A DNA stretch of 64,000 nt, taken from assembly GCF_036014015.1 (NCBI RefSeq), contig NZ_CP107905.1, positions 7,626,001-7,690,000 on the forward strand, written 5' to 3'. This document shows positions 14,679 through 38,730 of this stretch, in pieces; within the stretch, counting starts at the first letter, position 1; every line of letters starts with the position of its first letter. Source of the DNA: Streptomyces sp. NBC_00457 (GTDB lineage: Bacteria > Actinomycetota > Actinomycetes > Streptomycetales > Streptomycetaceae). The position numbers and the translations under genes were made by a program. The notes under the pieces were generated by a model, which was not told where the DNA came from, did no database searches, and worked only from the letters and a program-made list of their open reading frames with translations.

Positions 14679-15698
14679 ATGACTGCACGCGGCTGGTTTC
14701 TGTTCTCCCTGATGGGAGTGGTCTGGGGCATCCCCTACCTGCTGATCAAGGTGGCGGTGGACGCGGACTTGTCCCCGTCGACGGTGGTGTTCACGCGCTG
14801 CGCGCTAGGCGCTGCCCTGCTCCTGCCCTTCGCGATACGCCAGGGCGGCCTGCCCGGCACGATACGGACGCACTGGCGCCCGATGCTCGCCTTCGCGTGC
14901 ATCGAGATCATCGGCCCCTGGTGGACCCTGACCGACGCCGAACGCCACCTGTCCAGCTCCACGGCGGGCCTGCTGATCGCCGGAGTCCCGATCGTGGGAC
15001 TGGCCCTGGCCCGCTTCTTCGGTGACACGGAGAGGCTGGGGGTACGGCGTGCGACGGGCCTCGCGCTCGGGTTGGCCGGCGTGGGAGTCCTCACGGTCCC
15101 GCACCTGACCGGCGGCGACGCCCGCTCCCTGGCCGAGGTCTTCGTCACGGTGCTCGGCTACGCGACCGCCCCCCTGATCGCCGCGCGCTACCTCAAGGAC
15201 GTCCCGACCCTCCAGCTCATCGCCCCGTGCCTGGCCCTCGCGGCCCTGGTCTACGCCCCCGCGGCAGCGGTGACCCGGCCGCCCGCGATGCCCTCGACCT
15301 CGGTCCTGGCCGCCTTGGCCGCCCTGGGTGCCGTCTGCACCGCGGTCGCCTTCGTGGCCTTCCTGGAGCTGATCAAGGAGGCGGGCCCGACCAGGGCGAC
15401 GGTCTTCACGTACGTCAACCCGGCGGTCGCGGTGGCAGCGGGTGCGATCTTCCTCGACGAGCCGCTGACGGCGGGCATCGCCGCGGCGTTCACGCTGATC
15501 CTGGCGGGCTCGGTGCTGGCGACGTCGGCGGCGGGCCCGAGGGAGGGATCGAGGAACGGATCTAGGAAGGGATCGAGGAAGGCCCCACGCCCGGTAGCAT
15601 GGTCGACACGGCAGACGAGCCGGGCGGACGGCCGCGTGGAGGTTCCTATGGACCTCCCCGAGGAACGTCCGGGCTCCACAGGGCAGGGTGGTGGCTAA
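14679..15698 (+). CDS. EamA/DMT-family transporter, C-terminus runs into rnpB
   Basis: A 339-aa transporter with about ten hydrophobic segments in two EamA repeats. The first starts FLFSLMGVVWGIPYLLIKVA. The second covers residues about 150-285, with FLELIKEAGPTRATVFTYVN before the last pair. It would export a small metabolite or amino acid. Residues after about 287 are not membrane-like: an SR/GSRK-rich tail is followed by residues encoded by the first 86 bp of rnpB, up to TAA at 15696-15698. The ancestral stop was probably near residue 287. The C-terminal 50 residues should be treated as doubtful. It is probably co-transcribed with the AraC gene. Confidence 0.8.
   Translation: MTARGWFLFSLMGVVWGIPYLLIKVAVDADLSPSTVVFTRCALGAALLLPFAIRQGGLPGTIRTHWRPMLAFACIEIIGPWWTLTDAERHLSSSTAGLLIAGVPIVGLALARFFGDTERLGVRRATGLALGLAGVGVLTVPHLTGGDARSLAEVFVTVLGYATAPLIAARYLKDVPTLQLIAPCLALAALVYAPAAAVTRPPAMPSTSVLAALAALGAVCTAVAFVAFLELIKEAGPTRATVFTYVNPAVAVAAGAIFLDEPLTAGIAAAFTLILAGSVLATSAAGPREGSRNGSRKGSRKAPRPVAWSTRQTSRADGRVEVPMDLPEERPGSTGQGGG
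15595..15600 (+). promoter_or_regulatory. -10 element of the rnpB promoter
   Basis: TAGCAT ends 12 nt before the first base of the P1 helix of RNase P RNA. It lies inside the 3' coding part of the EamA gene. The -35 region is not obvious. Confidence 0.5.
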
Positions 15699-16028
15699 CG
15701 GCCACCCGGGGTGACCCGCGGGACAGTGCCACAGAAAGCAAACCGCCCAGCGTTCAGGCGCTGGGTAAGGGTGAAACGGTGGTGTAAGAGACCACCAGCG
15801 CCTGAGGTGACTCAGGCGGCTAGGTAAACCCCACCCGGAGCAAGGTCAAGAGGAGCCGCCTCTTCGAAAAGAAGAGCGACTCTGCGCGGACGTCCGAGGG
15901 CTGCCCGCCCGAGTCCGCGGGTAGACCGCACGAGACCGGCGGCAACGCCGGTCCTAGATGGATGGCCGTCGCTCCAGGGTCCGCGAGGACCCCGGAGGAC
16001 AGAACCCGGCGTACAGCCCGACTCGTCT
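15613..16028 (+). ncRNA. rnpB: RNase P RNA (type A, actinobacterial)
   Basis: About 416 nt with the hallmarks of bacterial RNase P RNA. The 5' strand of P1 (AGACGAGCCGGGC) pairs with the 3' end (GCCCGACTCGTCT). The universally conserved CR-I block is GAGGAACGTCCGGGCTCC. It is followed by CAGGGTGGTGGCTAACGGCC, the AGAAAGCAAACCGCC block, AGGGTGAAACGGTGGTGTAA, GAGACC and ACAGAACCCGGCGTACAG near the end. It is the catalytic RNA that matures tRNA 5' ends. The ends are set by P1 pairing and could be off by a few bases. Its 3' end recurs twice downstream, suggesting use as an attachment site. Confidence 0.96.
16005..16027 (+). other. Candidate attachment core att1 (3' end of rnpB)
   Basis: The last 23 nt of rnpB include the block CGTACAGCCCGACTCGTC. 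The same block occurs with one change at 27621-27638 and more diverged at 22021-22038, all in the same orientation. RNA-gene 3' ends are common integrase targets. No integrase gene is visible, so the role is inferred from the repeats. Confidence 0.6.
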
Positions 16029-16042
16029 GTCGGCAGGGCTCT

Positions 16043-16064
16043 GACCTGGGCTTATGGCCCGGTC
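16043..16064 (+). terminator. Terminator hairpin after rnpB
   Basis: GACC and GGGC pair with GCCC and GGTC around a TTATG loop, followed by GGGGCCTTTTCCC. A diverged copy with the same TTAT loop follows the second rnpB-end repeat at about 22055-22075. Confidence 0.6.
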
Positions 16065-16220
16065 GGGGCCTTTTCCCGCGTTCGGGCCCATCCCGCTTCT
16101 GCCTGCGAGTTCCCGGGAGTTCCGGGAGTTCCCGCGCCAGTGTGCAGAGGGACTTCGCGGGGACTTCGCGCCGCAGGGCGGAGCCGGCACGGTCAGTACG
16201 CTCCGTAGCGCAATGCCGGC

Positions 16221-17009
16221 TCAAGCTGCGATGTCGGCTTCGGGCTGGAGGGCAGGGCCGAGCAGTAGACCCCCGTCCAGGACGAATTCGGAGCCCGTGG
16301 CGAAAGACGCGTCCTGGGAGGTGATGAAGAGCAACAGGCGGGTGATGTCGGCGGGTTCGGCCAGGCGGGGGATGGCGAAGGGGGCGGGTGAATAGAAGTC
16401 GGCGATGGCCGGCTGGCCTGCGACGGTGGGTTCGTTGATCAGCGGTGTGGAGACGACGCCGGGGTGGATCGAGTTGACCCGGATGTTGTCCCGTCCCAGC
16501 TCCAGCGCGGCCGTCTTGGTCAGCCCGCGCACGGCCCACTTGCTGGCGGTGTAGGGGGCGTAGAAAGCCGTGCCTACGTGGGCCATGGTCGAGGCGATGT
16601 TGACGATGGTTCCGCCGCCGCCCCTGCGCATCGACGGAGCCACAGCCCTGATGCCGAGGAACTGACCGGTGACGTTGACACTGAAGGTCTGCTCCCAGGC
16701 ACGGAGTTCGGTGTGTTCGATAGGGGCCGCCGGGTTCTGGACGCCCGCGTTGTTCACCAGGATGCTGACCGGCCCGAAGTGGCCTTCGACTTCGCGCACC
16801 GCCGCCGCCCAGTCGTCCTCGCTGGCGACATCCAGGTGAACGGACAGAGCCCGATGACCGAGCTGAGCAGCGAGTTCGCGGCCGGCGTCGTCGTCGCGGC
16901 CGGCGATGACGACGTTCGCCCCCTCGGCGTGGTAGCCCCGCACATGGCTGCTGCCCATGCCGCCGCTGCCGCCCGTGACGATGACGGTCTGGCCCTCGAA
17001 GCGTCCCAT
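16221..17009 (-). CDS. SDR-family oxidoreductase
   Basis: A 262-aa classical short-chain dehydrogenase. The cofactor motif TGGSGGMGS is near residue 12, and AGRDDD at the end of strand 2 suggests NAD preference. NNAGV is near 88, and the catalytic Ser and YxxxK are in NIASTM and YTASKWAVRG near 137-155. The C-terminal FVLDGGLLL is family-typical. It is divergent from a TetR gene, with two perfect palindromes in the 122-bp gap, so the TetR protein most likely represses it. It is the first gene of accessory cassette 1 after rnpB. The substrate is unknown. Confidence 0.9.
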   Translation of the reverse strand: MGRFEGQTVIVTGGSGGMGSSHVRGYHAEGANVVIAGRDDDAGRELAAQLGHRALSVHLDVASEDDWAAAVREVEGHFGPVSILVNNAGVQNPAAPIEHTELRAWEQTFSVNVTGQFLGIRAVAPSMRRGGGGTIVNIASTMAHVGTAFYAPYTASKWAVRGLTKTAALELGRDNIRVNSIHPGVVSTPLINEPTVAGQPAIADFYSPAPFAIPRLAEPADITRLLLFITSQDASFATGSEFVLDGGLLLGPALQPEADIAA

Positions 17010-17036
17010 GATGCGTCCTTCCAGGTTTGCATGAAT

Positions 17037-17056
17037 GGTGAGTCGAGTGACTCACC
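17037..17056. promoter_or_regulatory. TetR operator 1
   Basis: Perfect dyad GGTGAGTC / GACTCACC with a 4-nt spacer (GAGT), 28 bp upstream of the SDR start. It is nearly identical to the second site at 17084-17107. Confidence 0.8.
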
Positions 17057-17083
17057 TCCTCTCTCAAGGTAAGAGCGGAACTA

Positions 17084-17107
17084 GAGGTGAGTCAAGTGAC
17101 TCACCTC
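17084..17107. promoter_or_regulatory. TetR operator 2
   Basis: Perfect dyad GAGGTGAGTC / GACTCACCTC with spacer AAGT, 25 bp upstream of the TetR start. The centres of the two sites are 49 bp apart. Confidence 0.8.
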
Positions 17108-17131
17108 GCAGCGAGGGGCATACTGGAGGGC

Positions 17132-17782
17132 ATGACGGCACAGCCTTCGGAATACCACCGGCGCGTGGCGGCGCAGAAGCGGACGGCCATCGTCGAGGCA
17201 GCGACGAAGCTGTTCCTCGACTCCGGCTACGACGGCACCTCGCTGGCCCGTATCGCCGAGGAGGCCGGAGTGTCGAGGGCGACTCTGTTCAAGCAGTTCA
17301 CCACCAAGGCGGCCCTGTTCGAGGCGATCGTCACCGAACACTGGAAGGTCGACGACGAGGAGGCGCCACTTCCCGAGCCGGGCAACCTCCGCGCAGGGCT
17401 CGAGGTCCTCGGACGCCGGTACGTTGCGCTGCTCACGCGGCCCGGCATGGCCGCCCTCCACCGCATCGTCATCGCCGAGGTGCCGCGCTTCCCGGAGCTC
17501 GGCGCGACCCAGTTCAAGCTCGGCAAGATGCCCTACTTCGAATCGGTCCGCCGCTACCTGGCAGCGGAAAACGCCGCCGGTACAGCCGTGCTCGACGATG
17601 CGGAGATGGCAGCGACCCAATTCCTTGGGATGATCTCCAACTACGTGTTCTGGCCGCGGATGCTGCTCGCCCGCTGGGAACCCGACGACTCCTCCGTCAT
17701 GAACGCGGTCGATCAAGCGGTGCAGACCATGCTCGCCCGATACGGGGCGCCGGGACTCGCGGCACCTGAGACGCCTGAGTGA
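17132..17782 (+). CDS. TetR-family repressor
   Basis: A 216-aa regulator. The N-terminal TetR helix-turn-helix covers residues about 15-60, with GTSLARIAEEAGVSRATLFKQF as the DNA-reading part. The C-terminal ligand-binding half resembles the TetR_C_33/AefR-like type (LTRPGMAALHRIVIAEVPRF near residue 105). ATG at 17132 has GGAGGG upstream; in-frame codons before it run through the operator region. It is divergent from the SDR gene and flanked by two matching operators, so it likely represses itself and the SDR gene. The inducer is unknown. Confidence 0.92.
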   Translation: MTAQPSEYHRRVAAQKRTAIVEAATKLFLDSGYDGTSLARIAEEAGVSRATLFKQFTTKAALFEAIVTEHWKVDDEEAPLPEPGNLRAGLEVLGRRYVALLTRPGMAALHRIVIAEVPRFPELGATQFKLGKMPYFESVRRYLAAENAAGTAVLDDAEMAATQFLGMISNYVFWPRMLLARWEPDDSSVMNAVDQAVQTMLARYGAPGLAAPETPE

Positions 17783-17854
17783 GTGGGGAGGTGCGCGACT
17801 CCCAGGAGCAGCACGGTCTCCCTCGCCACGACACTCGCGGGTCATCATCGGCCC

Positions 17855-18241
17855 ATGCGCTACAAAAACAGCACTCTGAAGATCATCGCGCCTCTTGTGG
17901 GTGCGGCCGCAGTGGTGGCCTGTCAGCAGGCGCCTGGGGAACGAGCTGGGGAACAACAGGGCCCCGGTGTGCCGGTGACGTACGTCGGGATGTGGGTCAC
18001 CGCGGACAATCACATCCGGCAGGAACTCCTCCCGAACGGTCGTTACGACGAGGCTCGGGGCGGGCGCGGAAGCGCGTATACCGGCCGCTACTGGGTGAAC
18101 GGAAATCACATCGAGTACGCGGACGACACGGGTTTCACCGCCGACGGAGAGTTCGAGGGCGACATCCTTCACCACGGTGGCTACGTCTTCTACCGCGAGG
18201 ACAGCCCGGCCCACCGCAAGGCCACCGGCAAAGACGCATGA
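17855..18241 (+). CDS. Lipoprotein with Atu4866-like domain
   Basis: A 128-aa secreted lipoprotein. Residues 1-23 form a signal with lipobox AAVVAC, so Cys23 should be lipidated. Residues about 42-120 match the Atu4866 fold known from Agrobacterium: GMWVTADNHIRQELLPNGRY, then GRYWVNGNHIEYADDTGFTADG, a small beta-barrel of unknown function. The ATG at 17855 is chosen because the signal peptide begins there; the upstream frame has no such feature. It sits between the TetR and XRE genes in cassette 1, close enough to the TetR stop (72 bp) to share a transcript. Confidence 0.8.
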   Translation: MRYKNSTLKIIAPLVGAAAVVACQQAPGERAGEQQGPGVPVTYVGMWVTADNHIRQELLPNGRYDEARGGRGSAYTGRYWVNGNHIEYADDTGFTADGEFEGDILHHGGYVFYREDSPAHRKATGKDA

Positions 18242-18348
18242 GGGAGCAACCCAGCCGCAGCTTCTGTCCGTCATCGGCACCAGCCTAGGAGTATCGCGGC
18301 CACCTTGGGCTGCTGCGTCGGACGTGCGGCGGGACTACCGTCGATGGC

Positions 18349-19218
18349 ATGGACAGCGACAACCTTCTGGGGCAGTTTCTGCGAGCTCGACGCGGCCTTG
18401 TGCGGCCCGAGGAACAGGGCGTTCCCGTGATTGGCCACCGCCGCGTGGCGGGTCTGCGCCGGGAGGAAGTGGCCATGCTGTCCGGGCTGAGCACCGACTA
18501 CTACGTGCGCCTGGAACAGGGCCGCGAGAGGAATCCGTCGGTGCAGGTGGTCGACGCGCTGGCCCGCACGCTGATGCTGGACGACGAAGGGATCGCCCAT
18601 CTGCACCAGCTGGCCCGGCCCATGCCGGGACGCTCCCGCAAGAGCACCCGGCGCCAGCCGGTCAGCCCCTCGCTGCTGCAGATGATGAACGGCTGGACCG
18701 ACACCCCTGCCGTGATCCTGGGGCGTTGTATGGACGTACTGGCGCACAACGCCCTGGGCGGCGCCCTGTTCGCCGGCCACACCTACAGCGGGGACCTGAT
18801 GCGGCTCGTCTTCCTCGACCCCGACGCCCGGGACTTCTACCCGGACTGGGACCGGGTCGCCGCCAACACGGTCGGCGGTCTGCGCGAGGCGGCGGGAACC
18901 GACTACGACGACCCGCAGTTGATCGAGCTGGTCGGCGAACTGTCGCTCAAGAGCGAAGAGTTCCGCAGGCTGTGGGCGCGTCATGACATCCGCCAGAAGA
19001 GGCACGAGACCAAACGCTTCCGGCACCCGGTCGTCGGCGAACTCACCCTGGCCTACGAGTCGTTGACCATCAACAGCGCCCCGGGTCAGCAACTGGTCGT
19101 CTACCAGGCCGAGCCCGCCGGCCCCTCCGCCCACGCACTGTCACTGCTCGGCAGCCTCACCGCGACGGAGACGGCGCGGAATTCGGATTCCGCGCAACAG
19201 GACATCACCACAGACTGA
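18349..19218 (+). CDS. XRE-family regulator with MmyB-like ligand-binding domain
   Basis: A 289-aa regulator. Residues about 8-75 are an XRE helix-turn-helix (RVAGLRREEVAMLSGLSTDY followed by YVRLEQGRERNPS). Residues about 105-265 form the MmyB-type PAS-like domain (WTDTPAVILGRCMDVLAHN and FRHPVVGELTLAYESL). MmyB-like proteins bind fatty-acid-like ligands and usually control a neighbouring dehydrogenase gene. The SDR gene at 19407 is the nearest candidate but is convergent. The ATG at 18349 is the first in frame and fits family N-termini. Confidence 0.9.
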   Translation: MDSDNLLGQFLRARRGLVRPEEQGVPVIGHRRVAGLRREEVAMLSGLSTDYYVRLEQGRERNPSVQVVDALARTLMLDDEGIAHLHQLARPMPGRSRKSTRRQPVSPSLLQMMNGWTDTPAVILGRCMDVLAHNALGGALFAGHTYSGDLMRLVFLDPDARDFYPDWDRVAANTVGGLREAAGTDYDDPQLIELVGELSLKSEEFRRLWARHDIRQKRHETKRFRHPVVGELTLAYESLTINSAPGQQLVVYQAEPAGPSAHALSLLGSLTATETARNSDSAQQDITTD

Positions 19219-19300
19219 CCGGCCTCACCCGACCGCCATTCCTTGAAGTCCGCCGCGCCCGTCCGCCGCGCCCGTACGCCGCGGTGTCTACGGTCGAGCG

Positions 19301-19435
19301 ATGAGCGAAGCAGTACGCTCGGCCGTTCATGACTCCACGCCGTCGGCGGGGAACCAACCGGTCCGCGGGGCCGCCGACGGCCGCCTGTCCGCCGACGGCC
19401 GCGCCGCTACGGCCGCTGCCGCGCGGGCCGGATGA
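19301..19435 (+). pseudogene. Possible truncated N-terminus of a lost gene
   Basis: A 44-codon frame begins ATG at 19301 with MSEAVRSAVHDSTPSAGNQP and stops at 19433-19435, antisense to the end of the SDR gene. The N-terminus resembles the cytoplasmic leader of MFS exporters, but no membrane segment follows. It may be a remnant left where cassette cargo was exchanged. Equally it may be chance. Confidence 0.25.
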
Positions 19436-20168
19436 CCATCTCGTTGACGTCGACATCCGCCGGCTGGCCGATCGCGTAGGAGATCGCACGAGCAATGGCA
19501 TCGGGCGGGATGGCAGCCGAGCGGTAGGTCTTCATCGCCGCCGCGGCTCCCGGTTCGGTGATGGTGTCGGCCAGTTCGGACTCGACGACGCCGGGTGAGA
19601 CGGTGGTGACCCTGATGAACGGCTCGGCCTCCTGCCGCAGGCCTTCGGTGATCGCCCGGGCCGCGTACTTCGTGGCGCAGTACACCGCGGCCGTGGGGAC
19701 CACGGAGTAGGCGCCGACCGACGCGATGGTGATGAAGTGCCCGCTGCTCTGGCGCTGGAAGTGCGGCATGGCCGCGGCGATGCCGTGCAGCAGCCCGTTG
19801 ACGTTGACGTTGATCATCCGGTCCCACTCGTCCACCAGCAGCGAGTCCAGGCGCGACAGCGGCATCACACCGGCGTTGTTGACCATCACGTCGATATGCC
19901 CCTGATCGGCAACCGTCTCGTCGACGAACCTGGCCACGTCGGCCCGGTCGGTGACGTCGAGACGGCGTACGTCGATGCTGCCGCCGTCAGCTCGGATGCT
20001 CTTGGCCAGGCTGGTCAGCCGATCCTCCCGACGCCCACCGGCAACGACGTGATGCCCTTCCGCGGCAAGCCGCCTGGCGATGCCTTCACCGATGCCACTC
20101 GTGGCACCCGTGACGAGCACGACCTTGCGGCCGCCCTGCTCTGTGGTCCGAGACGTTGTCCGTGTCAC
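19407..20168 (-). CDS. SDR-family oxidoreductase
   Basis: A 253-aa classical short-chain dehydrogenase. TGATSGIGEG is near residue 20. GGRRED after strand 2 suggests NADP use. NNAGV is near 95, the catalytic Ser is in IASVGAY near 145, and YCATKYAARA near 159. It is of the type often annotated as clavaldehyde dehydrogenase/YdfG-like. The start is the GTG at 20168, which begins a 15-residue Thr/Arg-rich leader before the first strand; no better start is seen. It lies between the XRE gene and the ATPase gene. The substrate is unknown. Confidence 0.88.
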   Translation of the reverse strand: MTRTTSRTTEQGGRKVVLVTGATSGIGEGIARRLAAEGHHVVAGGRREDRLTSLAKSIRADGGSIDVRRLDVTDRADVARFVDETVADQGHIDVMVNNAGVMPLSRLDSLLVDEWDRMINVNVNGLLHGIAAAMPHFQRQSSGHFITIASVGAYSVVPTAAVYCATKYAARAITEGLRQEAEPFIRVTTVSPGVVESELADTITEPGAAAAMKTYRSAAIPPDAIARAISYAIGQPADVDVNEMVIRPARQRP

Positions 20169-20365
20169 GGCGTCCTCCTTGTCCAGTCAGGGCCCAAGCC
20201 CCGTCGGCACTTCGTTCACCTGCGAACTTGCCGTGTTTTGGAGGGCGGGAGAAGGCCGGGATCTTCCTAGGAGCCCCGCACCCACCACCTGACGTCGGCT
20301 CGCGATGTCAGGTCCGGCCTGACGGGCTGCGGCAGGGCCATTTTCCATCGTCGAGGACATCCAAG

Positions 20366-20380
20366 GTAGATTTAATCTAC
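20366..20380. promoter_or_regulatory. Palindromic operator before the DUF234-type ATPase
   Basis: GTAGATTTAATCTAC is a perfect 7-bp-arm palindrome around one T, 40 bp before the ATG at 20420. It is strikingly AT-rich for this genome. The following bases (CTACGTAAGACGTTGCCTACG) repeat the half-site CTACG. Confidence 0.65.
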
Positions 20381-20419
20381 GTAAGACGTTGCCTACGTTT
20401 ATCTCTAAGAGGACCGCCG

Positions 20420-21856
20420 ATGGACTTCAAAGGCAGAGCGGCCGATCTCGATTTGTTGAGCCAGCAGCTCGGGTTGGTGATCGAAGGCGCGGGAGGCACC
20501 CGAGGGCAGGCCGTGATCATGACCGGGCGGCGGCGTGTGGGGAAGTCCCGTCTGGTTCAGGAGTTCTGCGACCGGTCCGGGGTTCCGTACGTGGTGTTCC
20601 AGGCGACCCGGGGCCGTAATGCCGTGGCCGAGCGGGCGGACTTCACCGCGGCGCTGGCGCAGTCCGCCGCTCTGCCGGGAGCGGAGCTGGTGGCGGGGTT
20701 GCAGGCCGCGGACTGGAATCAGGCGCTGCGCTCACTGGCCATCGCGCTACCGGACGACGCCCCGAGCATCGCTGTGATCGACGAGGTGCCGTGGCTGGTG
20801 GAGCAGGACGCGGAGTTCGAGGGGGCGCTGCAGACGGTCTGGGACCGTCATCTCTCCGCCAAGCCGGTCCTGCTCGTCCTGGTCGGCAGTGACATGTCGG
20901 TGATGGAGGCCCTGCAGTCCTACGGCCGTCCGTTCTTCGGGCGGGCGACGAAGATGACCGTCCAGCCGCTGCACCTGGCCGATGTGCAGGCGATGACGGA
21001 ACTCGACGCAGCAAACGCGGTGGACGCGTTGCTGATCACGGGAGGCTTTCCGGAGATCGTCCAGTCGTGGCGGCCGGGGATGAGCCGGGCGGACTTCCTG
21101 CGGGCGGCGGTGAACAACCCGCTGTCGCCGTTGCTGGTAGCGGGTGAGCTGTCGCTCCTCGGGGAGTTTCCCGAAGCTTCGCTGTCGCGGGCGGTGCTGG
21201 AGGCGGTGGGCAGTGGCGAGCGGACCTTCTCCGCCATCGCCGCCCAGGCCGGCGGGGCGGGAGCGCTGCCGTCGGGCACGCTGTCTCCGTTGCTGAACAC
21301 CCTGCAGGCCAAGCGGGTCCTGGCGGCCGACCTGCCCCTGTCCGGGAAGGCCGACACCAAGAACAAGCGCTACCGCATCGCCGATCCGTACCTGCGGTTC
21401 TGGCTGGCCTTCCTGCAGCGAGGAATCCCGCTCATCGAACGCGGCCGTGGCGATCTGGCCCTGGAGCGCATCGAGCGCTCATGGACGACCTGGCGGGGAC
21501 GCGCCGTCGAGCCGGTCGTTCGCGAGTCACTCCTACGGTTGCTGCCCGACGAGCACTGGCCTGAGACAGAGGCGGTGGGCGGTTGGTGGAACCGGCAGAA
21601 CAACCCCGAGGTCGACCTGATCGGCGCGGACCGCGAACCCGTGGCGGGCGCGGTGCACTTCGTCGGCTCCATCAAGTGGCTGGAGTCCCAGCCTTTCGGC
21701 AGACGTGAATACGACACTCTCGTCCGGGACGTGCCGGCCGTACCCGGCGCCGGCCCGGACACCCCGCTGGTCGCAGTGTCCCGCAGCGGCGTGACCGACG
21801 ATCTTCCCCTTGCGGCGCACTGGGGACCCGAAGAACTGGTACGGGCTTGGCAGTAG
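20420..21856 (+). CDS. ATP-binding protein of the archaeal-ATPase/DUF234 type
   Basis: A 478-aa protein. The STAND-like AAA ATPase domain has Walker A GRRRVGKSRLVQEF near residue 36 and Walker B SIAVIDEVPWL near 116. A helical region follows, then a winged helix near 260-330 (YRIADPYLRFWLAFL). The C-terminal DUF234 domain has a PD-(D/E)XK-like signature, NPEVDLIG near 395 with GSIKW near 414, so it may be a nuclease. Family members are common in archaea and sporadic in Streptomyces; their role is unproven. ATG at 20420 has AAGAGGA before it. It is the last gene of cassette 1. Confidence 0.85.
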   Translation: MDFKGRAADLDLLSQQLGLVIEGAGGTRGQAVIMTGRRRVGKSRLVQEFCDRSGVPYVVFQATRGRNAVAERADFTAALAQSAALPGAELVAGLQAADWNQALRSLAIALPDDAPSIAVIDEVPWLVEQDAEFEGALQTVWDRHLSAKPVLLVLVGSDMSVMEALQSYGRPFFGRATKMTVQPLHLADVQAMTELDAANAVDALLITGGFPEIVQSWRPGMSRADFLRAAVNNPLSPLLVAGELSLLGEFPEASLSRAVLEAVGSGERTFSAIAAQAGGAGALPSGTLSPLLNTLQAKRVLAADLPLSGKADTKNKRYRIADPYLRFWLAFLQRGIPLIERGRGDLALERIERSWTTWRGRAVEPVVRESLLRLLPDEHWPETEAVGGWWNRQNNPEVDLIGADREPVAGAVHFVGSIKWLESQPFGRREYDTLVRDVPAVPGAGPDTPLVAVSRSGVTDDLPLAAHWGPEELVRAWQ

Positions 21857-21946
21857 CCGGGGGCGCGGCACAGGGTTCGTATTTCAGGGGGTGGTGCGCG
21901 GAAGGCATGTCGTGAGCGGATGGTTTCCATAGACTTGCTCGCGGTT

Positions 21947-22038
21947 TGCACGGCTACTGGTCAGGCGGAACATCGACGCAGCTCAGAGGTCGATTTCAGT
22001 AGTACGGGACCTATCCCCGGCGTATAGCCCGGCCCGCC
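21947..22038 (+). repeat. Cassette right-end repeat R1 with candidate att2
   Basis: About 92 bp that align end to end, with a single 1-bp gap, with 27546-27638. Shared blocks include TGCACG, CAGGCGGAAC, GCAG-TCAGA and CGTATAGCCCG. The last 23 bp (22016-22038) are a diverged copy of the rnpB 3' end. Confidence 0.65.
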
Positions 22039-22155
22039 TGCCTTCGGTGTTCTGACCGGGACTTATGGCCTGGTCGGGGCCCTTCTCGTGTCTGTACGCT
22101 TCCTGCTTCCACCTGGGAATTCCCGGGAGCTCCCGCGGCAGTGTGCCCGTGTTGT
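22039..22155 (+). repeat. Cassette left-end repeat L2 (resembles the sequence after rnpB)
   Basis: It matches 16028-16150: TCTGACC, CTTATGGCC, GGTCGGGGCC, TTCCCGGGAG and CAGTGTGC occur in the same order and spacing. It includes the counterpart of the rnpB terminator. The rest of 21857-22274 shows no gene. Confidence 0.65.
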
Positions 22156-22274
22156 GCAGGCAAGTCCCGGATGCGTTGCTGCACTTCTCGAATCGGCGTG
22201 AACTCGGCAAGGTCCTGGGCCCACCGGGAGGCGCTGACGGCCCGCCCCCAAGGGACAGGTCATCGTGATGCCGC

Positions 22275-22748
22275 TCAGCGTGAGGCGCCCTCGGGCCACA
22301 ACACCCGTACGGGGACGCCGTTGCGTTCGGCGTAGTTCACGACGTCCGCCGTCCCGCCGTAGCCCCGCGCGGGTTTCCCGTCCCACACGGCCAGCAGCTC
22401 ATCCACCAGGCCGACGAGGATTTCGCTGCCCGCCTGGTGGGCCTCGGACGTCGACTCGCTCATGCCGGTTTCGTGCACGTCGGCAGCCTGCCGGATCAGC
22501 TTGTCGTACGTGTCGTGATGCCACTCGGGGAGGCTGTCGCGGTACTCAGTGGCCGGAATGACGACTTCGAGGCGCCCGCCGTGCGCCAGGACCGCCTCCG
22601 CGAACCAGGCATCGGGACCGTCGGCGATGCACGAGACGGCGACCAGCTCTGAGGTGTCGTAGCCGCGTACCGCTGCGTCGAGCATCGCTCGCACACGTTC
22701 CTCGACCTCCGCGCTCAGCCCGCGGTGTCCCGTGATCCCCACCCGCAC
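22275..22748 (-). CDS. SLOG-like (TIR/MoCo-carrier-type Rossmann) protein
   Basis: A 157-aa single-domain protein beginning VRVGITGHRGL, the glycine/arginine loop that starts many SLOG-superfamily nucleotide-binding proteins. The second conserved block is ELVAVSCIADGPDAWFAEAVL near residue 33. ELLAVWDGKPARGYGGTADVV near 115 resembles the family's substrate-binding loop. GTG at 22748 has AAGGAGG 6 nt upstream. It is 11 bp after the XRE/TPR regulator in the same operon, divergent from the graspetide genes. It may sense or make a nucleotide signal for that cluster; this is inference. Confidence 0.75.
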   Translation of the reverse strand: MRVGITGHRGLSAEVEERVRAMLDAAVRGYDTSELVAVSCIADGPDAWFAEAVLAHGGRLEVVIPATEYRDSLPEWHHDTYDKLIRQAADVHETGMSESTSEAHQAGSEILVGLVDELLAVWDGKPARGYGGTADVVNYAERNGVPVRVLWPEGASR

Positions 22749-22759
22749 TGTGTACCTCC

Positions 22760-24013
22760 TTACAGGTAGACGCCGTGCAGTTGCTCGTCGAAGTCCCGTA
22801 CCACCTTGGGCGGTGCGGTGGTCGTGAGAGTACGGCGCATGGTGCGCGCCCGCTCCACGATCCGCCCCGACCGGTATTTGAGCCCGGTGTTCAGCGCGCG
22901 GGAGGCGAGGGCGAACGCCGCCTCGACGCGTCCTGAGGCGAGATGGCCGGAAGCGATGTCGAGCACCAGCAGGGCGCGCTGTTTCTCGTGGCCGGTGGCA
23001 AGCGCCTCGGTGTCCTCGGAGAGCACCCAGTCGGCGAGGCCGAGCCGTGCGCCGCAGGCCACTCGGGCGGCGGCGACCTTCGTTTCGGTGAAGGTGAACA
23101 CCCATGGCCATGGCGGCGGTTCTTGACCGTTCAGGGTTGCAACGGAGGCCCGTGACGATGTCAGCGACCGGTCGGCACGGCGTCGGTCTCCGACAGTCGC
23201 GTGTGCCAGGGCCTCGACGCTGGAGAGCCACGCGTCCGCGATGGCGGGGCGCTGGTCGCCGAGCGCGCGGCGGGCCTTCGCCGCGAGGTTCAGGCCCTGG
23301 ACGCCGTTACCCGCATAGGCCTCGAACTGGGCCAGACTGCCGGTCTGGTAGGCCATCAGCAGCGGATTGCCGGCCGCCTTGGCGGCCTTGATGGCGGAGC
23401 CGTACCAGGTGCGTGCGCTGCCGTTGTCGCCCATGTCCCACGCGAGCCACCCGGCGAGGCTTGCCGCCTCGCTGCCGACGGCCGCGAGGCGGGGACGCTG
23501 CTCGGCGCCCGCGTCGCGGGTGATGCTCTGGATCAGGCGCACGTGGGCGCGTACGGACTCCTCCAGGTCCCGGGAGGGGGTTGAGCCGTCGAGCCGCCTG
23601 TAGGCGGACGTGCTCAGACGGAGGGCTGCCGCCTGCCCACTGGTCGTGTCGGCTGCGTCGGGCAGTGCGGCCAGAGCTGGGGTCGCGGCCACGGCCACGG
23701 CCACGGCCCCGCCGAGGAAGCGGCGTCGGTCCACGTCGTCAGACCCGTCCTTCGCGTGTGTCTGGGGGTGGCTGTCGGCGAGTCCGACCAGTGTCGGCGG
23801 GATCTCCAGGTGTGCGGCAGCCGTCGCCAGAATGTCGGTGCTGTAGGCCGCGGTTCCCTTCTTCTCCAGACGGGACACGGCGGACTGGCTCATGCCCAGG
23901 GCCTGGCCCAAGGCAGTCTGCGTGATCCGCCGGTCGGTGCGGACGAGTTCGATCACCCGCCCGTAATTCCCGGCCCGGGATGCCTCTCGGATCGGCCTTG
24001 TCTGGAAATCCAC
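22760..24013 (-). CDS. XRE-family regulator with TPR-like domain (graspetide cluster)
   Basis: A 417-aa regulator. Residues about 20-75 are an XRE helix-turn-helix (ITQTALGQALGMSQSAVSRLEKKG). Residues about 95-120 include RRRFLGGAVAVAVAATPALAAL, which looks like a twin-arginine signal but sits inside the protein; the same odd feature is common in this Streptomyces family. The remainder is helical TPR-like repeats that probably bind a peptide or small molecule. The start is the GTG at 24013. It is divergent from the HATPase-tgm genes and is their likely regulator. Confidence 0.88.
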   Translation of the reverse strand: MDFQTRPIREASRAGNYGRVIELVRTDRRITQTALGQALGMSQSAVSRLEKKGTAAYSTDILATAAAHLEIPPTLVGLADSHPQTHAKDGSDDVDRRRFLGGAVAVAVAATPALAALPDAADTTSGQAAALRLSTSAYRRLDGSTPSRDLEESVRAHVRLIQSITRDAGAEQRPRLAAVGSEAASLAGWLAWDMGDNGSARTWYGSAIKAAKAAGNPLLMAYQTGSLAQFEAYAGNGVQGLNLAAKARRALGDQRPAIADAWLSSVEALAHATVGDRRRADRSLTSSRASVATLNGQEPPPWPWVFTFTETKVAAARVACGARLGLADWVLSEDTEALATGHEKQRALLVLDIASGHLASGRVEAAFALASRALNTGLKYRSGRIVERARTMRRTLTTTAPPKVVRDFDEQLHGVYL

Positions 24014-24078
24014 GACCTACCCCCACGCTACGAGTCTCCACGGCACCGCGCGTCTACCCCTACCCGCTGAGCGCATAT

Positions 24079-24088
24079 CCGCATGCGG
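24079..24088. promoter_or_regulatory. Candidate operator between the XRE gene and the tgm operon
   Basis: The perfect palindrome CCGCATGCGG is followed at once by a second CCGCATG (24092-24098) and preceded by GCGCATAT. The cluster of CGCAT elements lies 66 bp upstream of the XRE start and 166 bp upstream of the HATPase start. A TTGACT at 24128 could be a -35 for the tgm direction. Confidence 0.45.
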
Positions 24089-24253
24089 GTGCCGCATGTG
24101 TGATGGTCCCACGTCACACAGTGATCGTTGACTAGGTGTCAGCACAACGCCCGTCTCTCCAGCGGGAGTTCGGGCGCCTGTGCGACGGCGGTACGCCCCC
24201 AGTTCTTGGCCGGGGACGAACCGTCCCCCCGCACCCGGACCAAGGCGTGATCC

Positions 24254-24700
24254 ATGACGATGACGGCGACCAGGCCCCGCCCCAAGGGGCACCCCGGCTA
24301 CAGCGAAACCCACCCCCGCATCGAAGCGACGGCGCCCCAGGCCCGTGGCCTGGTCCGCACCGCCTGCGCCATATGGGGCCTCCCGGACGAGGTGACCGAG
24401 GCGGCGTCTGTAGTGATGGCCGAACTCGTCTCCAACGCGGTGCGTCACGCCTCAGGCCCATCAGTGCGGGTCACCGTCGACCGGCTCGGCCACGAACGCG
24501 TGCGCCTGGCGGTCGTCGACCGCGCTCCCCACCGGCTTCCGGACCTGTGCGCCCCGGAGGATGAGGAGCAGAGCGGGCGCGGGCTGGTTCTCGTCGAGGC
24601 CATGAGCGATCGGTGGGGCTACGACCTGCTCGGCCCCGCCCGCCGCCCGTGGGGCAAGCGCTGCTGGGCCGAACTCGCCGTGAAGCAGGTAGCTCTGTGA
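24254..24700 (+). CDS. HATPase_c anti-sigma-factor-like ATP-binding protein
   Basis: A 148-aa protein of the RsbW/SpoIIAB-like HATPase_c group that is abundant in Streptomyces. The N-box is VVMAELVSNAVRHASG near residue 53, the G1 box VDRAPHRLPDL near 89, and the G2 box GRGLVLVEAMSDRWG near 109. It probably binds ATP and a partner regulatory protein. It is the first gene on the graspetide side and overlaps the next gene by 4 bp, so it is in the same operon. The second ATG at 24260 is an alternative start. Confidence 0.85.
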   Translation: MTMTATRPRPKGHPGYSETHPRIEATAPQARGLVRTACAIWGLPDEVTEAASVVMAELVSNAVRHASGPSVRVTVDRLGHERVRLAVVDRAPHRLPDLCAPEDEEQSGRGLVLVEAMSDRWGYDLLGPARRPWGKRCWAELAVKQVAL

Positions 24701-24864
24701 TCCTCGACGGCTTGGACGCAGACCTGGAGGAGGAGCGGTCCTGGCCATCGCGCTGGCCCCGAAGAATCCGGATCGCATGGAGACAGGTAGCGGTCCAGCT
24801 CCTCTTCGTCATCGCGGTCACTGCTTTCGTGCTCGCCCTGTTCTCCTGCGGCGCCGACTGGTGA
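24697..24864 (+). CDS. Small membrane protein, 55 aa
   Basis: The frame starts with GTG at 24697, overlapping the HATPase stop as GTGA. It encodes an acidic/basic N-terminus (DLEEERSWPSRWPRRIRIAW) and one membrane segment (VAVQLLFVIAVTAFVLALFS) ending CGADW. The overlap and clean hydrophobic segment support a real gene. It may help export or tether the graspetide machinery, but no family is recognised. Confidence 0.6.
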   Translation: MILDGLDADLEEERSWPSRWPRRIRIAWRQVAVQLLFVIAVTAFVLALFSCGADW

Positions 24865-24982
24865 TCTCCAGCGGTCCGCCCCCTCATCCCTGTCCCGTCG
24901 ACGAGAGCACCTACCAGTGCACCAGGCAAGGCGAAGCCGAGCAGAGTGCACACCTATGGATCACACGAAGGAGAGATGACAC

Positions 24983-25240
24983 ATGACAGCAGCAGAGCAG
25001 CTCGCTCCCGCCCGCCCGTGGGGCGCCGGCCGCCTCGCCCCGTACCCGACCACGGTGAACCTGCCGTTCACGTCGGTCACGATCGACCCGGCGACGCAGA
25101 CCGGCGTGCTCCGCGACGGTGAAGGGTTGGTAGTGGAGATGGGCAAGCACGGCACCAGTTCCGCGACTTCGACGACCACCGTGACCAACCTGGATTCGCG
25201 CAACGACCAGGGATCCGACCAGGACTCACAGCAGGACTGA
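24983..25240 (+). CDS. tgmA: Putative ATP-grasp-modified RiPP precursor (graspetide)
   Basis: An 85-aa precursor. The leader (residues about 1-52) carries the family block LPFTSVTIDPATQTGVLRDG, recognised by the maturase. The core (from about residue 53) is rich in Thr/Ser (SSATSTTTVTN) followed by Asp-rich LDSRNDQGSDQDSQQD, giving hydroxyl donors and acidic acceptors for side-chain ester links. It lacks cysteines, as expected for this class. ATG at 24983 has AAGGAGAG upstream. tgmB starts 6 bp after the stop. Confidence 0.9.
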   Translation: MTAAEQLAPARPWGAGRLAPYPTTVNLPFTSVTIDPATQTGVLRDGEGLVVEMGKHGTSSATSTTTVTNLDSRNDQGSDQDSQQD

Positions 25241-25245
25241 CGCGT

Positions 25246-26208
25246 ATGGCCGAGACCGACAGGCCCGTCCTCGTGGCCACCGAAGCCTTCGATCTGACCG
25301 CCGACATGGTGATCACCGAACTCAACCGCAAGGGCATTCCGGTGGTCCGCTTCAACCCTGCTGACATCGGTAGGGACCTGACGGTCTCGGCTCAGTTCGG
25401 TGTCTGCCCGACCCTCGTGGCCGGGCAACTTCGCACTACGTCGAGAACTGCCGACCTGGAGCACGTCAGAGCGGTGTACTGGCGCCGCCCCGTCTGGCCC
25501 GCCTTCGAGAACCTGGAGGCCGACGATGCTCGATTCGCCGCCGCCCAGGTCCGTTGCGGGCTTGGCGGCATCCTCTACGCCCTCGACGGCCCACTGTGGT
25601 TGAACCACCCTCTGAGGGAAGCGGCTGCCGATTACAAGCCCGCCCAACTCGCCCTGGCCCAGCGTCTGGGCCTCAAGGTGCCGCCAACCATTGTCACGAA
25701 CGACCCTGACGCCGCACGGGAGTTCATCCAGGAACACGGTCAAGTGATCTACAAGACGCTGCGGTGGACGCCGTACGAGCGAGACGGAATCGGTCTCACC
25801 TCGTGGGCGGAGCCGGTCAGCTCCGACGAGATCACCGAAGCCGTGCGCGTCACCCCGCACTTGTTTCAGGCCCGTGTGGTCAAGACGGCGGATCTGCGGG
25901 TTCTCCTCGTCGGCGAGCGGGTGTTCGCCGTACGGATCGACTCCGGTCTGTTGGACTGGCGCAAGGACTACAGCGCGCTCACGTACCACGTGGTAGACCT
26001 GCCCGATCGCCTGACGAAGACCCTGCGCGCCTACCTCGACCACTACGGTCTCACTTCCGGCAGCTTCGACCTTGCCGTCGACCGCGCCGGCGAACCGCAC
26101 TGGCTGGAGCTGAACCCCAACGGCCAGTGGGGCTGGCTGGAGGAGAACACCGGGCTGCCTATGGCTGCCGCGTTCGCCGACCTGCTCACCCGAGGAGAAC
26201 CCCGATGA
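25246..26208 (+). CDS. tgmB: ATP-grasp ribosomal peptide maturase
   Basis: A 320-aa ATP-grasp ligase of the MvdD/PsnB-like type. The N-terminal pre-ATP-grasp region (residues 1 to about 95) includes AVYWRRPVWP. The ATP-binding and metal sites follow, with VIYKTLRW near 166 and the metal motif HWLELNPNGQWGWLE near 284. It activates acidic side chains of the precursor as acyl phosphates and joins them to Thr/Ser hydroxyls as omega-esters (known for the family). The stop overlaps tgmC by 4 bp. Confidence 0.92.
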   Translation: MAETDRPVLVATEAFDLTADMVITELNRKGIPVVRFNPADIGRDLTVSAQFGVCPTLVAGQLRTTSRTADLEHVRAVYWRRPVWPAFENLEADDARFAAAQVRCGLGGILYALDGPLWLNHPLREAAADYKPAQLALAQRLGLKVPPTIVTNDPDAAREFIQEHGQVIYKTLRWTPYERDGIGLTSWAEPVSSDEITEAVRVTPHLFQARVVKTADLRVLLVGERVFAVRIDSGLLDWRKDYSALTYHVVDLPDRLTKTLRAYLDHYGLTSGSFDLAVDRAGEPHWLELNPNGQWGWLEENTGLPMAAAFADLLTRGEPR

Positions 26209-27413
26209 CTCAGACCGCTCCACAGCGACGCGCACTTGCCGAACGGCTCCAGGCGGCCGGAGTCCTCACAACCGCCGCATGGCGGGCTGCCGTCGAGGCC
26301 GTACCGCGTGAACTGTTCCTCAATCCGGGTGTGTTCCTGCCCGCCGAAGGCGGACTCTGGCGCTCTGTAACGGCCCTCGGTACCGACCCTGCCGAGTGGG
26401 CCGAGATCGCCTACAGCGACCAGTCCCTGGCCACTCAGCTCGATGGACACCTGACCGCCGACCAGACCGGTGAGCCGGTCCGCGGCACACCCACCTCGTC
26501 CTCGACCACGCCCGTGACGGTGGTCGGCATGATCGAACATCTCGACGTCGACGACGGGCATACGGTGCTGGAGATCGGCACCGGCACCGGCTACTCGACC
26601 GCCCTGATGTGTCACCGGCTCGGCGAGGACAACGTCACCACGATCGAGGTGGACCAGCAGGTCGCGGCCCGTGCGGATGCTGCACTGGAAGAGGCCGGGT
26701 TCTCCACGTGGACCGTGACCGGTGACGGGCTTCTCGGCCACCCTCGCCGGGCACCGTACGACCGGGTGATCGCCACTTGTGCCGTACGCCGCATCCCGTA
26801 CACATGGGTACGCCAGACCCGGCCGGGCGGGATCATTCTCGCCACCGTCGGCTCATGGGCGTACGGGACCGGCCTCGCGAAGGTCACTGTCAACGAAGCC
26901 GGTTCAGCTGAGGGGCGCATCATCGGCCGGTCGTCCTTCATGCACGCTCGCGCACAGGCCGCCGTACCTCTGGCCGGGGATCTGTCGGCCCGCACCGCCT
27001 ACGCCGACACCGAGCGGGAGGCGAAGGTGCCACCGACGCTGCTGGACGACTGGATGCCCGCCTTCCTCGCCCAGCTTGCCGCCCCGAGGGCCCAGTTCGT
27101 GAAAGCAGCCAGCGCAGACGGAACGCTGTCGCTGTACCTGTTCGACGCAGACCGCGAGTCGTTCGCAGCCTTCACCGAGGGCGCCTCCGGCTGGACGGTC
27201 CGCCAAGGCGGCCCCGTCTCCCTGTGGGACGACGTCGAAGCGGCCCTAACCGCGTGGCAGGACGCCGGACAGCCCGACATCAGCGCGATACGCGTTCACA
27301 TCACCGAGCGGGCTCACACGTACTGGATCGGAGGACAGCGGATCACCACGCCGAGCGGTGAGAAGTGGATCGGGGAGAAGCCGGTACTGCGGTGGGAACA
27401 CCCCATCCGCTGA
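26205..27413 (+). CDS. tgmC: ATP-grasp-peptide-associated PIMT-like methyltransferase
   Basis: A 402-aa protein with an L-isoaspartyl O-methyltransferase-like domain. The SAM motif I is VLEIGTGTGYSTAL near residue 123, with the PIMT-typical YSDQSLATQL near 72. Residues after about 240 form an extra C-terminal domain absent from housekeeping PIMT but present in graspetide-cluster methyltransferases. In the fuscimiditide pathway such an enzyme methylates an Asp of the cross-linked peptide, which closes to an aspartimide. The same outcome is plausible here but inferred. It is the last gene of the operon, followed by a strong hairpin. Confidence 0.9.
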   Translation: MTQTAPQRRALAERLQAAGVLTTAAWRAAVEAVPRELFLNPGVFLPAEGGLWRSVTALGTDPAEWAEIAYSDQSLATQLDGHLTADQTGEPVRGTPTSSSTTPVTVVGMIEHLDVDDGHTVLEIGTGTGYSTALMCHRLGEDNVTTIEVDQQVAARADAALEEAGFSTWTVTGDGLLGHPRRAPYDRVIATCAVRRIPYTWVRQTRPGGIILATVGSWAYGTGLAKVTVNEAGSAEGRIIGRSSFMHARAQAAVPLAGDLSARTAYADTEREAKVPPTLLDDWMPAFLAQLAAPRAQFVKAASADGTLSLYLFDADRESFAAFTEGASGWTVRQGGPVSLWDDVEAALTAWQDAGQPDISAIRVHITERAHTYWIGGQRITTPSGEKWIGEKPVLRWEHPIR

Positions 27414-27427
27414 CCGCTGACATTCGT

Positions 27428-27460
27428 TCGGGCCCCAGCTAGTTCCGCGCCGGGGCCCGA
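27428..27460 (+). terminator. Terminator after tgmC
   Basis: A perfect 9-bp stem TCGGGCCCC / GGGGCCCGA with a 15-nt loop begins 14 bp after the tgmC stop. There is no T-run, as is usual in Streptomyces. Confidence 0.7.
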
Positions 27461-27545
27461 GCCTTACGCCGTTCCCGAGTAGCGGGATTCACTTGGCGCC
27501 GGCCCGGCTGAGCAGCAGATCAGCCGTGGCAGTGTGCACACGAGG

Positions 27546-27638
27546 TGCACGACCTCTGGCCAGGCGGAACGCTCGCGCAGGTCAGACGCCGTGGTCACGA
27601 ATCACATGGCTGTCCCCGGGCGTATAGCCCGACTCGTC
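27546..27638 (+). repeat. Cassette right-end repeat R2 with candidate att3
   Basis: It aligns with 21947-22038 over its whole length. Its last 18 bases differ from the rnpB 3' end at one position (CGTATAGCCCGACTCGTC). It marks the end of cassette 2. The region 27639-28062 that follows shows no convincing gene on either strand, only a promoter-poor spacer with possible gene debris. Confidence 0.65.
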
Positions 27639-28062
27639 GGCGGCTCTGCATCTCCACAGGCCAGAGGCCGTGGTTTCCGGTGAATCAACGCCCAGGTCGA
27701 ATTCGGGCCTTGCCGGATGAGTGGGAAGGTGAAGATCGGCGCTCGGTTGGCCGCAGCGTGCAGCCTGAACGGGCTGCGCCAGGGGCCCTGACACCGGAGG
27801 GCAACGGGGTCAACGCACGACGCGAGTTCTTCCACGTCCCCCTGGCTCCGTTCCGTGACGCCCTCGCCCGTCTGCCCAGGCCAGCACCTTCTGTAGTTCT
27901 ACGAAGAACCGGACGCCCCGGAATGGCGAGTCGTGTCGGCGCGACGCACCGCTGACGGATATCTGGGGTGGCAGGGGAGATCGGGCACCGAATTTGCTGC
28001 CGCCACTTTGACCACCCGTACGACTGCCAGTACCGCCAGGTACGCTTAAACACATCGTCAAC

Positions 28063-30065: not shown

Positions 30066-30163
30066 GCGCGCGGTATCCGGCCATGATGCCCGTGCTTCCA
30101 GCCGACCGATGTGTCATATGCGCCGGGACGGGACGTCACTTGTCTAAGATCCCAGGCGTCATT

Positions 30164-30237
30164 GCGGCCCGACGGGCTTCCCCACGTGGACATGCCCCCA
30201 TCCGCACGAGTCACTCGTGCCCTGGGGGATCCACCTC
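30164..30237 (+). promoter_or_regulatory. Conserved hairpin leader 2 (sequesters the ribosome-binding site)
   Basis: It has the same 18-nt block as leader 1, then a hairpin at 30195-30228. CCCCCA pairs with TGGGGG and GCACGAGT with ACTCGTGC around a single C. TGGGGGA is the ribosome-binding site for GTG at 30238. Loop bases differ from leader 1 while pairing is kept. TAAGAT at 30146-30151 is a possible -10. Confidence 0.7.
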
Positions 30238-37985: not shown

Positions 37986-38034
37986 GTGGGCAGCTTGGCA
38001 TGGCATGCCGTGGCTGTTCCGTGAGTAGACCCTC

Positions 38035-38601
<567 letters not shown>

Positions 38602-38730
38602 GGTCACTCCCGGAGCAGGCATCAAGGACAGTCCCACGGGTTTCCACCGTCCCACCGATGACACCCACCCGGCCTCCCCGGACCGCCGTACGGGTGGCGC
38701 GGTCCGGGTCGCGGTGTTTGTCTGGCAGTC

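Follow-up and report, generated by a model that had tools for sequence, protein, structure and literature searches.

The 3' end of the RNase P RNA gene as a probable attachment site for several integrase lineages, and the stacked units behind it in Streptomyces sp. NBC_00457

Temperate phages and genomic islands integrate into the 3' ends of tRNA or tmRNA genes and restore the gene as they do so, through a core that is flanked by integrase sites. In integrons, cargo units without an integrase of their own are arrayed in direct repeat at one fixed site. Within the genus Streptomyces, Zhang and Loria are said to have described in 2017 the accretion and cis-mobilisation of pathogenicity islands, apparently at another site and with other cargo. 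In the accretion model of integrative and conjugative elements (ICEs) and integrative and mobilisable elements (IMEs), as presented in the available part of PMC5704250, cis-mobilisable elements (CIMEs) are units that have no integration or transfer genes and keep attL and attR; they derive from an ICE or IME through deletion and travel with an autonomous element that has accreted next to them. Here we describe a stretch of 64,000 nucleotides from Streptomyces sp. NBC_00457 (the window, G000:C1:7626001-7690000 of the 10.8-Mb single-contig genome G000; coordinates without a prefix are window positions), in which units without an integrase lie one behind another at the 3' end of rnpB, the gene for the RNase P RNA. 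This 3' end very probably serves as attB for several tyrosine-integrase lineages, with the window holding at least three stacked elements. The reading of the array as att-bounded, stacked units is strongly supported, and our verdict is tandem accretion at a structural-RNA gene.

The host gene, a class A RNase P RNA, occupies 15616..16029 on the plus strand (RF00010, 298.9 bits), and its last 24 nt (16006..16029, plus strand, by pattern and alignment) are copy 1 of the attachment core. A first-pass annotation, made from the letters alone, had reported that the end of rnpB recurs in direct orientation, and it does so on the plus strand at 22017..22040 (copy 2) and 27617..27640 (copy 3); the recurrences are not exact, as they differ from the last 24 nt of rnpB at 4 and 3 positions, respectively. 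A degenerate core pattern matched without mismatch at five places in the 10.8-Mb genome, all on the plus strand: the three in the window, and 9657899 and 10315680 of G000:C1. Allowing 1 mismatch added 4 further places, and the reversed-pattern control gave 1 forward and 1 reverse match. Attachment at a tRNA gene was considered and rejected, as a tRNA and tmRNA search of the window and of the loci L014, L016, L018 and L145 returned none.

The DNA on either side of the cores recurs as well. The left ends of unit 1 (16030..16150, plus strand) and unit 2 (22041..22160, plus strand, by alignment and class assignment) both belong to what we call end class A, and the approximately 120 bp behind copies 1 and 2 share 75.6% identity over 119 columns (BLAST, E 5e-16), a similarity that 0/1000 random stretches attained. 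The unit 1 left end carries, directly behind rnpB, a terminator-like hairpin of -28.1 kcal/mol, and its outer GTGTGCA motif is present singly. The right ends, also of class A, lie on the plus strand at 21924..22016 (unit 1) and, by alignment, at 27523..27616 (unit 2, with two GTGCAC-type motifs). The local alignment score of the 92-bp right ends before copies 2 and 3 was reached by 0/1000 random window stretches, and the pair is absent from the BLAST list at an E limit of 1e-3; the right end of unit 1 resembles those at copy 3 and at 10315680, each score being reached by 0/1000 random stretches. As a control, the copy 2 right end was compared with the DNA after copy 3, and 111/1000 random stretches reached that score. 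Both similarities had been noted in the first-pass annotation, and both hold. The DNA after copy 3 (27641..27730, plus strand) is class-E-like: its scores were reached by 0/500 random stretches for three of the six left ends compared, the other three being not significant. Given this likeness to left ends outside class A, copy 3 marks the start of a third unit as well, whose right-hand core was not found in a scan of up to 5 mismatches. The two units proposed earlier thus stand as class-A units, and the count rises to at least three.

Class-A ends also occur elsewhere in G000. A core with a class-A left end lies at G000:C1:9657899 (82% over 138 bp), and a class-A right end with core lies at G000:C1:10315680, just behind a gene that looks catC-like by eye; in total the genome has three left and three right class-A ends, all on the plus strand. 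The lone left end (L002, L014) is 2.0 Mb and the lone right end (L003, L016) 2.7 Mb away from the window array, and the two stand 658 kb apart in the same orientation. They may be a split element, relocated pieces of an array or the borders of one very large bracketed segment. L002 also carries a CAGGTCAGAG motif about 0.95 kb before its core.

A 147-bp query comprising the rnpB end and the left end matched 193/199 genomes of the genus. Among the matches listed, most cover the rnpB end alone, and the class-A left end is therefore not a general flank of rnpB. From these, 46 rnpB loci of 45 genomes were fetched, chosen by their match to the left end of the window and so not a random sample; judging from named records with the same arrangement, the genomes designated by G numbers would all be Streptomyces. 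A strict core pattern was present in 75/91 genomes, 16 of these 75 having more than one exact core, and the reversed control matched in 0 of 91. The first-pass annotation had suggested looking for empty rnpB 3' ends, for strains with a single unit or with other cargo behind the same end class, and for integrases with an att site at the rnpB 3' strand, and all of these were found. Empty ends are represented by L089-L091, and a native terminator beginning TCGGCCCACGTG is kept in 3/46 fetched loci. In G168, which has two inverted copies of rnpB, a conserved SnoaL-like gene follows 144 bp behind the core. These copies (L066, G168:C29) lie about 3.3 kb apart with the same downstream sequence, as a real inverted duplication or an assembly artefact. 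The clearest case of insertion is G015, in which a 5,979-bp unit occupies the exact junction of the core with a native terminator and Lrp-like gene retained in G004 and G162. In 10 loci without the native terminator, window included, the distance from rnpB to the SnoaL-like gene ranges from 2.0 to 22.7 kb.

Occupied sites are frequently arrays. G184 reads rnpB, 21.2 kb, core, 9.4 kb, core, and further direct arrays were found in G047 (5.5 kb), G193 (7.5 kb), G091, G108, G058 and G066, with G047 and G184 supplying the single-unit strain and the other cargo behind the same end class. In Streptomyces scabichelini HC44, which shares 93% identity with the window in the rnpB end region, one 47.8-kb contig contains rnpB with a class-C left end, a decayed graspetide copy and a class-A junction. 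Next come a unit of 6.9 kb, a further core, relatives of the Schlafen-type genes of the window in inverted orientation, and a graspetide cluster that has 95% identity to window positions 25209-27469; the same modules can therefore occur in another order and orientation. Three further loci deserve mention. At position 6776 of L134 (G033:C16), a partial second rnpB-like 3' end with a class-like left flank lies about 5.9 kb behind the first, and a unit may there have carried along part of rnpB. The cores of G062:C20 and C28 (L130-L133), separated by 65 kb and 45 kb and bearing left ends of classes E and C, are possibly one very long mixed array broken by assembly. On the 1.56-Mb plasmid record of Streptomyces sp. 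NBC_01483, NZ_CP109439.1:899273-899305 matches the copy 2 core over 33 bp at 88% (E 0.2), possibly a core copy on a large extrachromosomal replicon.

The window itself has no PF00589 or PF07508 match, in keeping with the earlier statement that it holds no integrase. Nor did an integrase profile, weakened by three wrong-strand rows (L113, L116 and L122), detect any fragment within the window or the flanking 20 kb to its left and right. A decayed C-terminal integrase fragment with a stop lies at G000:C1:7712205-7712366 (L145:2100-2357), 58.6 kb beyond core 3, and is 54-56% identical over about 58 amino acids to the rnpB-specific integrase group of G166; no core was found nearby. In other genomes, PF00589 genes adjoin cores in G166, G179 and G034, and integrases beside cores also occur in G110, G146, G084, G138, G066, G178 and G198. 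In G110, G146 and G084, relatives at 91% identity or higher end at a core that is 102, 106 and 75 kb, respectively, behind a partner core, and the G166 island is 97 kb long; rnpB itself provides the partner core in G166 and G110 but not in G146. G035 contains a 131.6-kb class-C island with a different integrase 0.8 kb behind rnpB, at 24-29% to the other correctly translated ones. Chromosomal islands with a tyrosine integrase adjoining the core thus measure 75-132 kb. Their interpretation as actinomycete integrative and conjugative elements was rejected, as no FtsK/TraB-type transfer protein (PF01580) was matched in the islands of G166, G084, G146, G110 and G035 or between the cores of G062 C20/C28. 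The integrases compared form a B/D/G179 group (37-62% between subgroups), the G035 integrase and a G064 integrase at 24-29%, a comparison in which 5/12 sequences (L116, L118, L122, L125 and L126) were wrong-strand and could not match; on this grouping, at least two and probably three lineages would act at rnpB.

Viral sequences carry the same core. In IMG/VR, 27 stretches (two from one contig) contain it exactly, with an integrase beside the core in 20/27 and rnpB in 2. Twenty other proteins from five of these stretches include RecE, RusA, processivity-factor, repressor-like, DNA-invertase and unnamed phage families, and virion structural genes were not among them, each stretch being part of a contig. 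End class D, with an integrase beside an attP core in viral contigs that have phage replication genes, would on these grounds represent temperate phages. One IMG/VR core-adjacent integrase had no relative among INPHARED phages at 1e-20, and scans of IMG/VR with class-B and class-C arm patterns gave no match. For class A, no intact PF00589 match was found less than 70 kb from a class-A core in the 10 genomes with class-A ends, to the extent covered by their contigs, contig ends restricting the downstream view to about 17 kb in G097 and 33 kb in G194. A weak PF00589 match in G002 is 73 kb away on the other side of rnpB, and in G000 an intact PF00589 gene and the lone left end at 9.66 Mb are separated by 114 kb.

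Altogether 134 distinct core contexts were gathered, 69 of them at rnpB, including near-identical ones from related genomes and hence not independent, and their left ends revealed five classes (A-E) on one core. The rnpB left flanks comprise 8 of class A, 6 of B, 17 of C, 1 of E and 3 native ones, besides those left unassigned. At 64 other cores, a class could be given to 23 flanks (A 6, B 9, C 4, D 2, E 2), with 40 unassigned and 1 native, and the viral contexts with enough flank (n=24) divided into 13 of class D and 11 unassigned. Classing relied on representative ends and a common threshold, which was set by a single class-B random score of 86 (the others being 29-31); this score probably came from a random stretch on a real class-B end, and the class counts are conservative because it set the threshold for all. 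The inner motif CAGGTCA stands before non-rnpB cores in 26/61 contexts (random 447/20000) and also after the core in 21/133, and its inverse TGACCTG follows the core in 37/133 (random 468/20000) and precedes non-rnpB cores in 1/61. Of the class repeats, paired AAGTCCC occurs after the core in 9/133 and before it in 7/61 (random 6/20000), GTAGCCAC in 14/133 and 10/61 (46/20000), the class-E motif in 5/133 and 2/61 (12/20000) and the class-D motif in 5/133 and 0/61 (10/20000). Repeats common to both ends are clear in classes B and C and less so in A and E, and such an arrangement would fit the arm sites of tyrosine integrases. A hairpin with a T-run within about 75 nt was found in 43/69 rnpB contexts, 25/64 other cores and 6/300 random stretches; those in left ends may terminate rnpB transcription.

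These findings lead us to propose that the attB at rnpB is used by temperate phages and large integrative islands of Streptomyces. With recombination taking place at the last ~23 nt, rnpB would stay whole and the left end of the incoming element would come to lie behind it, where the left-end hairpin could stand in for the rnpB terminator. The second core left at the right end would be the entry point for the next element, and units would stack because every right end leaves another core. In the window, two class-A units without an integrase (units 1 and 2) and the start of a class-E-like unit would have arrived in this way, by integrase-mediated recombination. Where a unit has no integrase, that of a phage or element resident in the same cell may act on it in trans, or the unit may move in cis once an autonomous element has accreted beside it. 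For the units of the window, mobilisation in trans is a plausible route; the outer motifs of unit 1 look decayed, and this unit has probably lost its mobility.

Several observations weigh against this proposal. Half of the rnpB left flanks (34/69) fall into no class, and the strict class-A motif GTGTGCAC is weakly enriched (4/133 and 3/61 versus 63/20000 random). No match to the G166-type integrase was found in G000 at 1e-40, and no class-A integrase in the 10 genomes with class-A ends (PF00589, 12 genomes searched), in an arm-pattern scan of IMG/VR or in DNA and protein searches of phage and plasmid records. The empty-site alleles examined are those of relatives rather than of the window's own species. 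The interval between rnpB and the SnoaL-like gene also varies from 3.3 to 11.1 kb in three loci that retain the native terminator, and its length alone is therefore no proof of insertion. Finally, a simple insertion at rnpB does not explain two lone class-A ends 658 kb apart.

Two explanations without any mobile unit can be largely set aside. The first-pass annotation had offered as an alternative that the rnpB 3' flank was duplicated in tandem long ago and that homologous recombination between the repeats then swapped the cargo. The direct orientation of the repeats agrees with it, 75.6% identity fits old copies, and HC44 hybrids, among them a left end of class C with a class-A right end behind it, indicate that homologous exchange may have shaped arrays later. 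However, a duplication does not predict single ends elsewhere in the genome, relatives with a precisely empty site or the presence of the core beside integrases in viral contigs. The fact that one core bears several end classes unrelated to each other also speaks against it, and we consider it very improbable. That the left-end repeat is simply the native rnpB terminator, duplicated by need, would accord with the terminator-like hairpins in 43/69 left ends behind rnpB, but the native terminator of the empty site differs in sequence and the left ends vary by class, which makes this account hardly credible.

Accretion at rnpB leaves room for two views of what units 1 and 2 are today. They could be fixed remnants of autonomous class-A elements that have lost their integrase and transfer genes, with no mobilisation in trans; the decayed outer motifs of unit 1, the decayed integrase fragment 58.6 kb beyond core 3 and the decayed graspetide copy behind rnpB in HC44 all point that way. 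In contrast, small integrase-less units with intact ends lie between different right neighbours (G015, L164, L170, L171, L182 and L211), and the class-A units of 10 genomes, all without a nearby integrase, fit a standing integrase-less type. We hold decay to be possible but less likely than not. The further proposal that the rnpB 3' end is a standing platform, on which integrase-less class-A and small class-C units, equipped with operons for graspetides, BREX type 2 or Schlafen-type helicases among others, are loaded and exchanged in trans by the integrases of rnpB-specific phages and islands, is one that we regard as rather unlikely. If true, phages docking at rnpB would help to build the defence and peptide arsenal of their host, and each unit would bring its own terminator, keeping RNase P RNA production safe.

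The cargo genes of units 1 and 2 are unrelated, just as the first-pass annotation had claimed. Unit 1 encodes a short-chain dehydrogenase/reductase (SDR; 16221..17009, minus strand; PF13561/PF00106), a TetR regulator with an AefR-like C-terminal domain (17132..17782, plus; PF00440 and PF14246, with the domains matched on a longer open reading frame (ORF) from 17087 and the start at 17132 set by our own gene caller), an MmyB-like XRE regulator (18400..19218, plus; PF17765 and PF13560, matched on a longer ORF from 18349), a second SDR (19407..20168, minus; PF00106) and an ATPase_2/DUF234-type protein (20420..21856, plus; PF03008 and PF01637) like the defence candidate PDC-S27 (PADLOC, 1.9e-23). 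Unit 2 begins with an NsdA-family tetratricopeptide-repeat-like regulator (22760..23956, minus; NF053720, 216.5 bits against a cut-off of 75) and a HATPase_c_2 domain protein (24254..24700, plus; PF13581). These are followed on the plus strand by a graspetide precursor (24983..25240; PF14408 and TIGR04186), an ATP-grasp peptide ligase (25246..26208; TIGR04187, 404 bits) and a methyltransferase of ATP-grasp peptide systems resembling protein-L-isoaspartate methyltransferase (26331..27413; TIGR04188, 449 bits); with TIGR04186, TIGR04187 and TIGR04188 consecutive and all above cut-off, unit 2 contains a graspetide cluster. The third stretch (28191..32361, plus) has two ORFs, 28191-30065 and 30217-32361, related by DNA similarity, both like the defence candidate PDC-S41 (PADLOC, 3.1e-20 and 4.3e-6), and the former with a Schlafen group 3 helicase domain (PF09848). 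The two are diverged DNA-level copies of each other, and their HC44 relatives lie inverted beside the graspetide cluster. The conserved chromosomal backbone resumes at 37638..39057, with relatives in the same order at other rnpB loci, as MazG-like (37638-37985), DoxX-like (38035-38607) and SnoaL-like (38731-39057) genes, named by resemblance and not by family search.

Across loci, 4 of the 45 genomes whose rnpB loci were fetched, the window's among them, have the graspetide cluster behind rnpB. A scan of genome contigs with the window's ATP-grasp gave 139 relatives, and among 79 loci retained, 16 have rnpB within 8 kb. On a rough estimate, a 17-kb segment of a chromosome of approximately 8.5 Mb would contain rnpB in about 0.2% of cases; the link is therefore strong, with the reservation that related hosts are not independent. 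The core (up to 2 mismatches) was present in 22/79 of these loci, one of which (L215) looks like chance and three of which (L174, L216 and L217) have doubtful second copies, and absent from 57/79. The ends of the cluster are class-A in the window, class-C left ends in the G015 group and an unclassed left end in G058; because the end classes differ between copies, capture of the cluster at rnpB has probably happened more than once. All-against-all comparison of the class-A stretches from 10 genomes (13 are listed, G002 not compared) found no gene common to the units. The window's ATPase has relatives in three genomes (G000, G184 and G105). Genes of the bacteriophage exclusion (BREX) system occur in two: the class-A unit of G184 contains a type 2 set (PglW, PglX, PglY, PglZ, BrxD and BrxHI), and the G068 stretch relatives of 5/6 of these genes, PglX as a 374-amino-acid piece only. 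In the class-B island behind rnpB in G166 (L073, 7741-14183) lie large ORFs of 1029, 421 and 689 amino acids, the last related to the window's methyltransferase; read by eye, they look like a lanthipeptide-type cluster, which would be a second kind of ribosomally synthesised and post-translationally modified peptide cargo at rnpB.

Most fetched genomes, then, carry something other than the native terminator behind rnpB, and the core with its end classes provides an exact way to cut out and classify rnpB islands. It also predicts integrases with a defined attB that is present in 193/199 genomes searched, helps to explain why one type of graspetide cluster recurs beside the RNase P RNA gene, and makes testable the question of whether integrase-less units ride on phage integrases. 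In the literature searched, from which subscription journals were mostly absent, no account was found in which phages or islands attach at rnpB, and the available parts of PMC8776855, PMC10763512, PMC10383233 and PMC6582537 describe no integration there.

Among known systems, the array comes closest to CIMEs: the units of the window lack an integrase, keep both ends and are stacked, and newcomers would enter at an att copy. Units 1 and 2 retain attL and attR, as cores with class-A ends, and contain no integration genes, transfer genes having been sought by Pfam on the main ORFs only. The array differs from CIME and ICE accretion in that its site is rnpB rather than a tRNA or protein gene, in that the integrase-bearing partners at rnpB include phages and islands without FtsK-type transfer genes, and in that class-A units were never seen with an integrase in the genomes examined. 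Strictly, moreover, the term CIME implies mobilisation in cis, and to propose mobilisation in trans is to claim something slightly different. With the pathogenicity islands attributed to Zhang and Loria, the window shares site-specific accretion in the same genus. As with elements at tRNA and tmRNA genes, a structural RNA gene is restored at its 3' end, but here the target is the RNase P RNA, several integrase lineages converge on it and long mixed arrays are formed. Like integron cassettes, the rnpB units are integrase-less and stand in direct repeat at one fixed site; unlike them, they are several kilobases long, carry whole operons, have two different ends of the phage att type and are associated with phage-type integrases.

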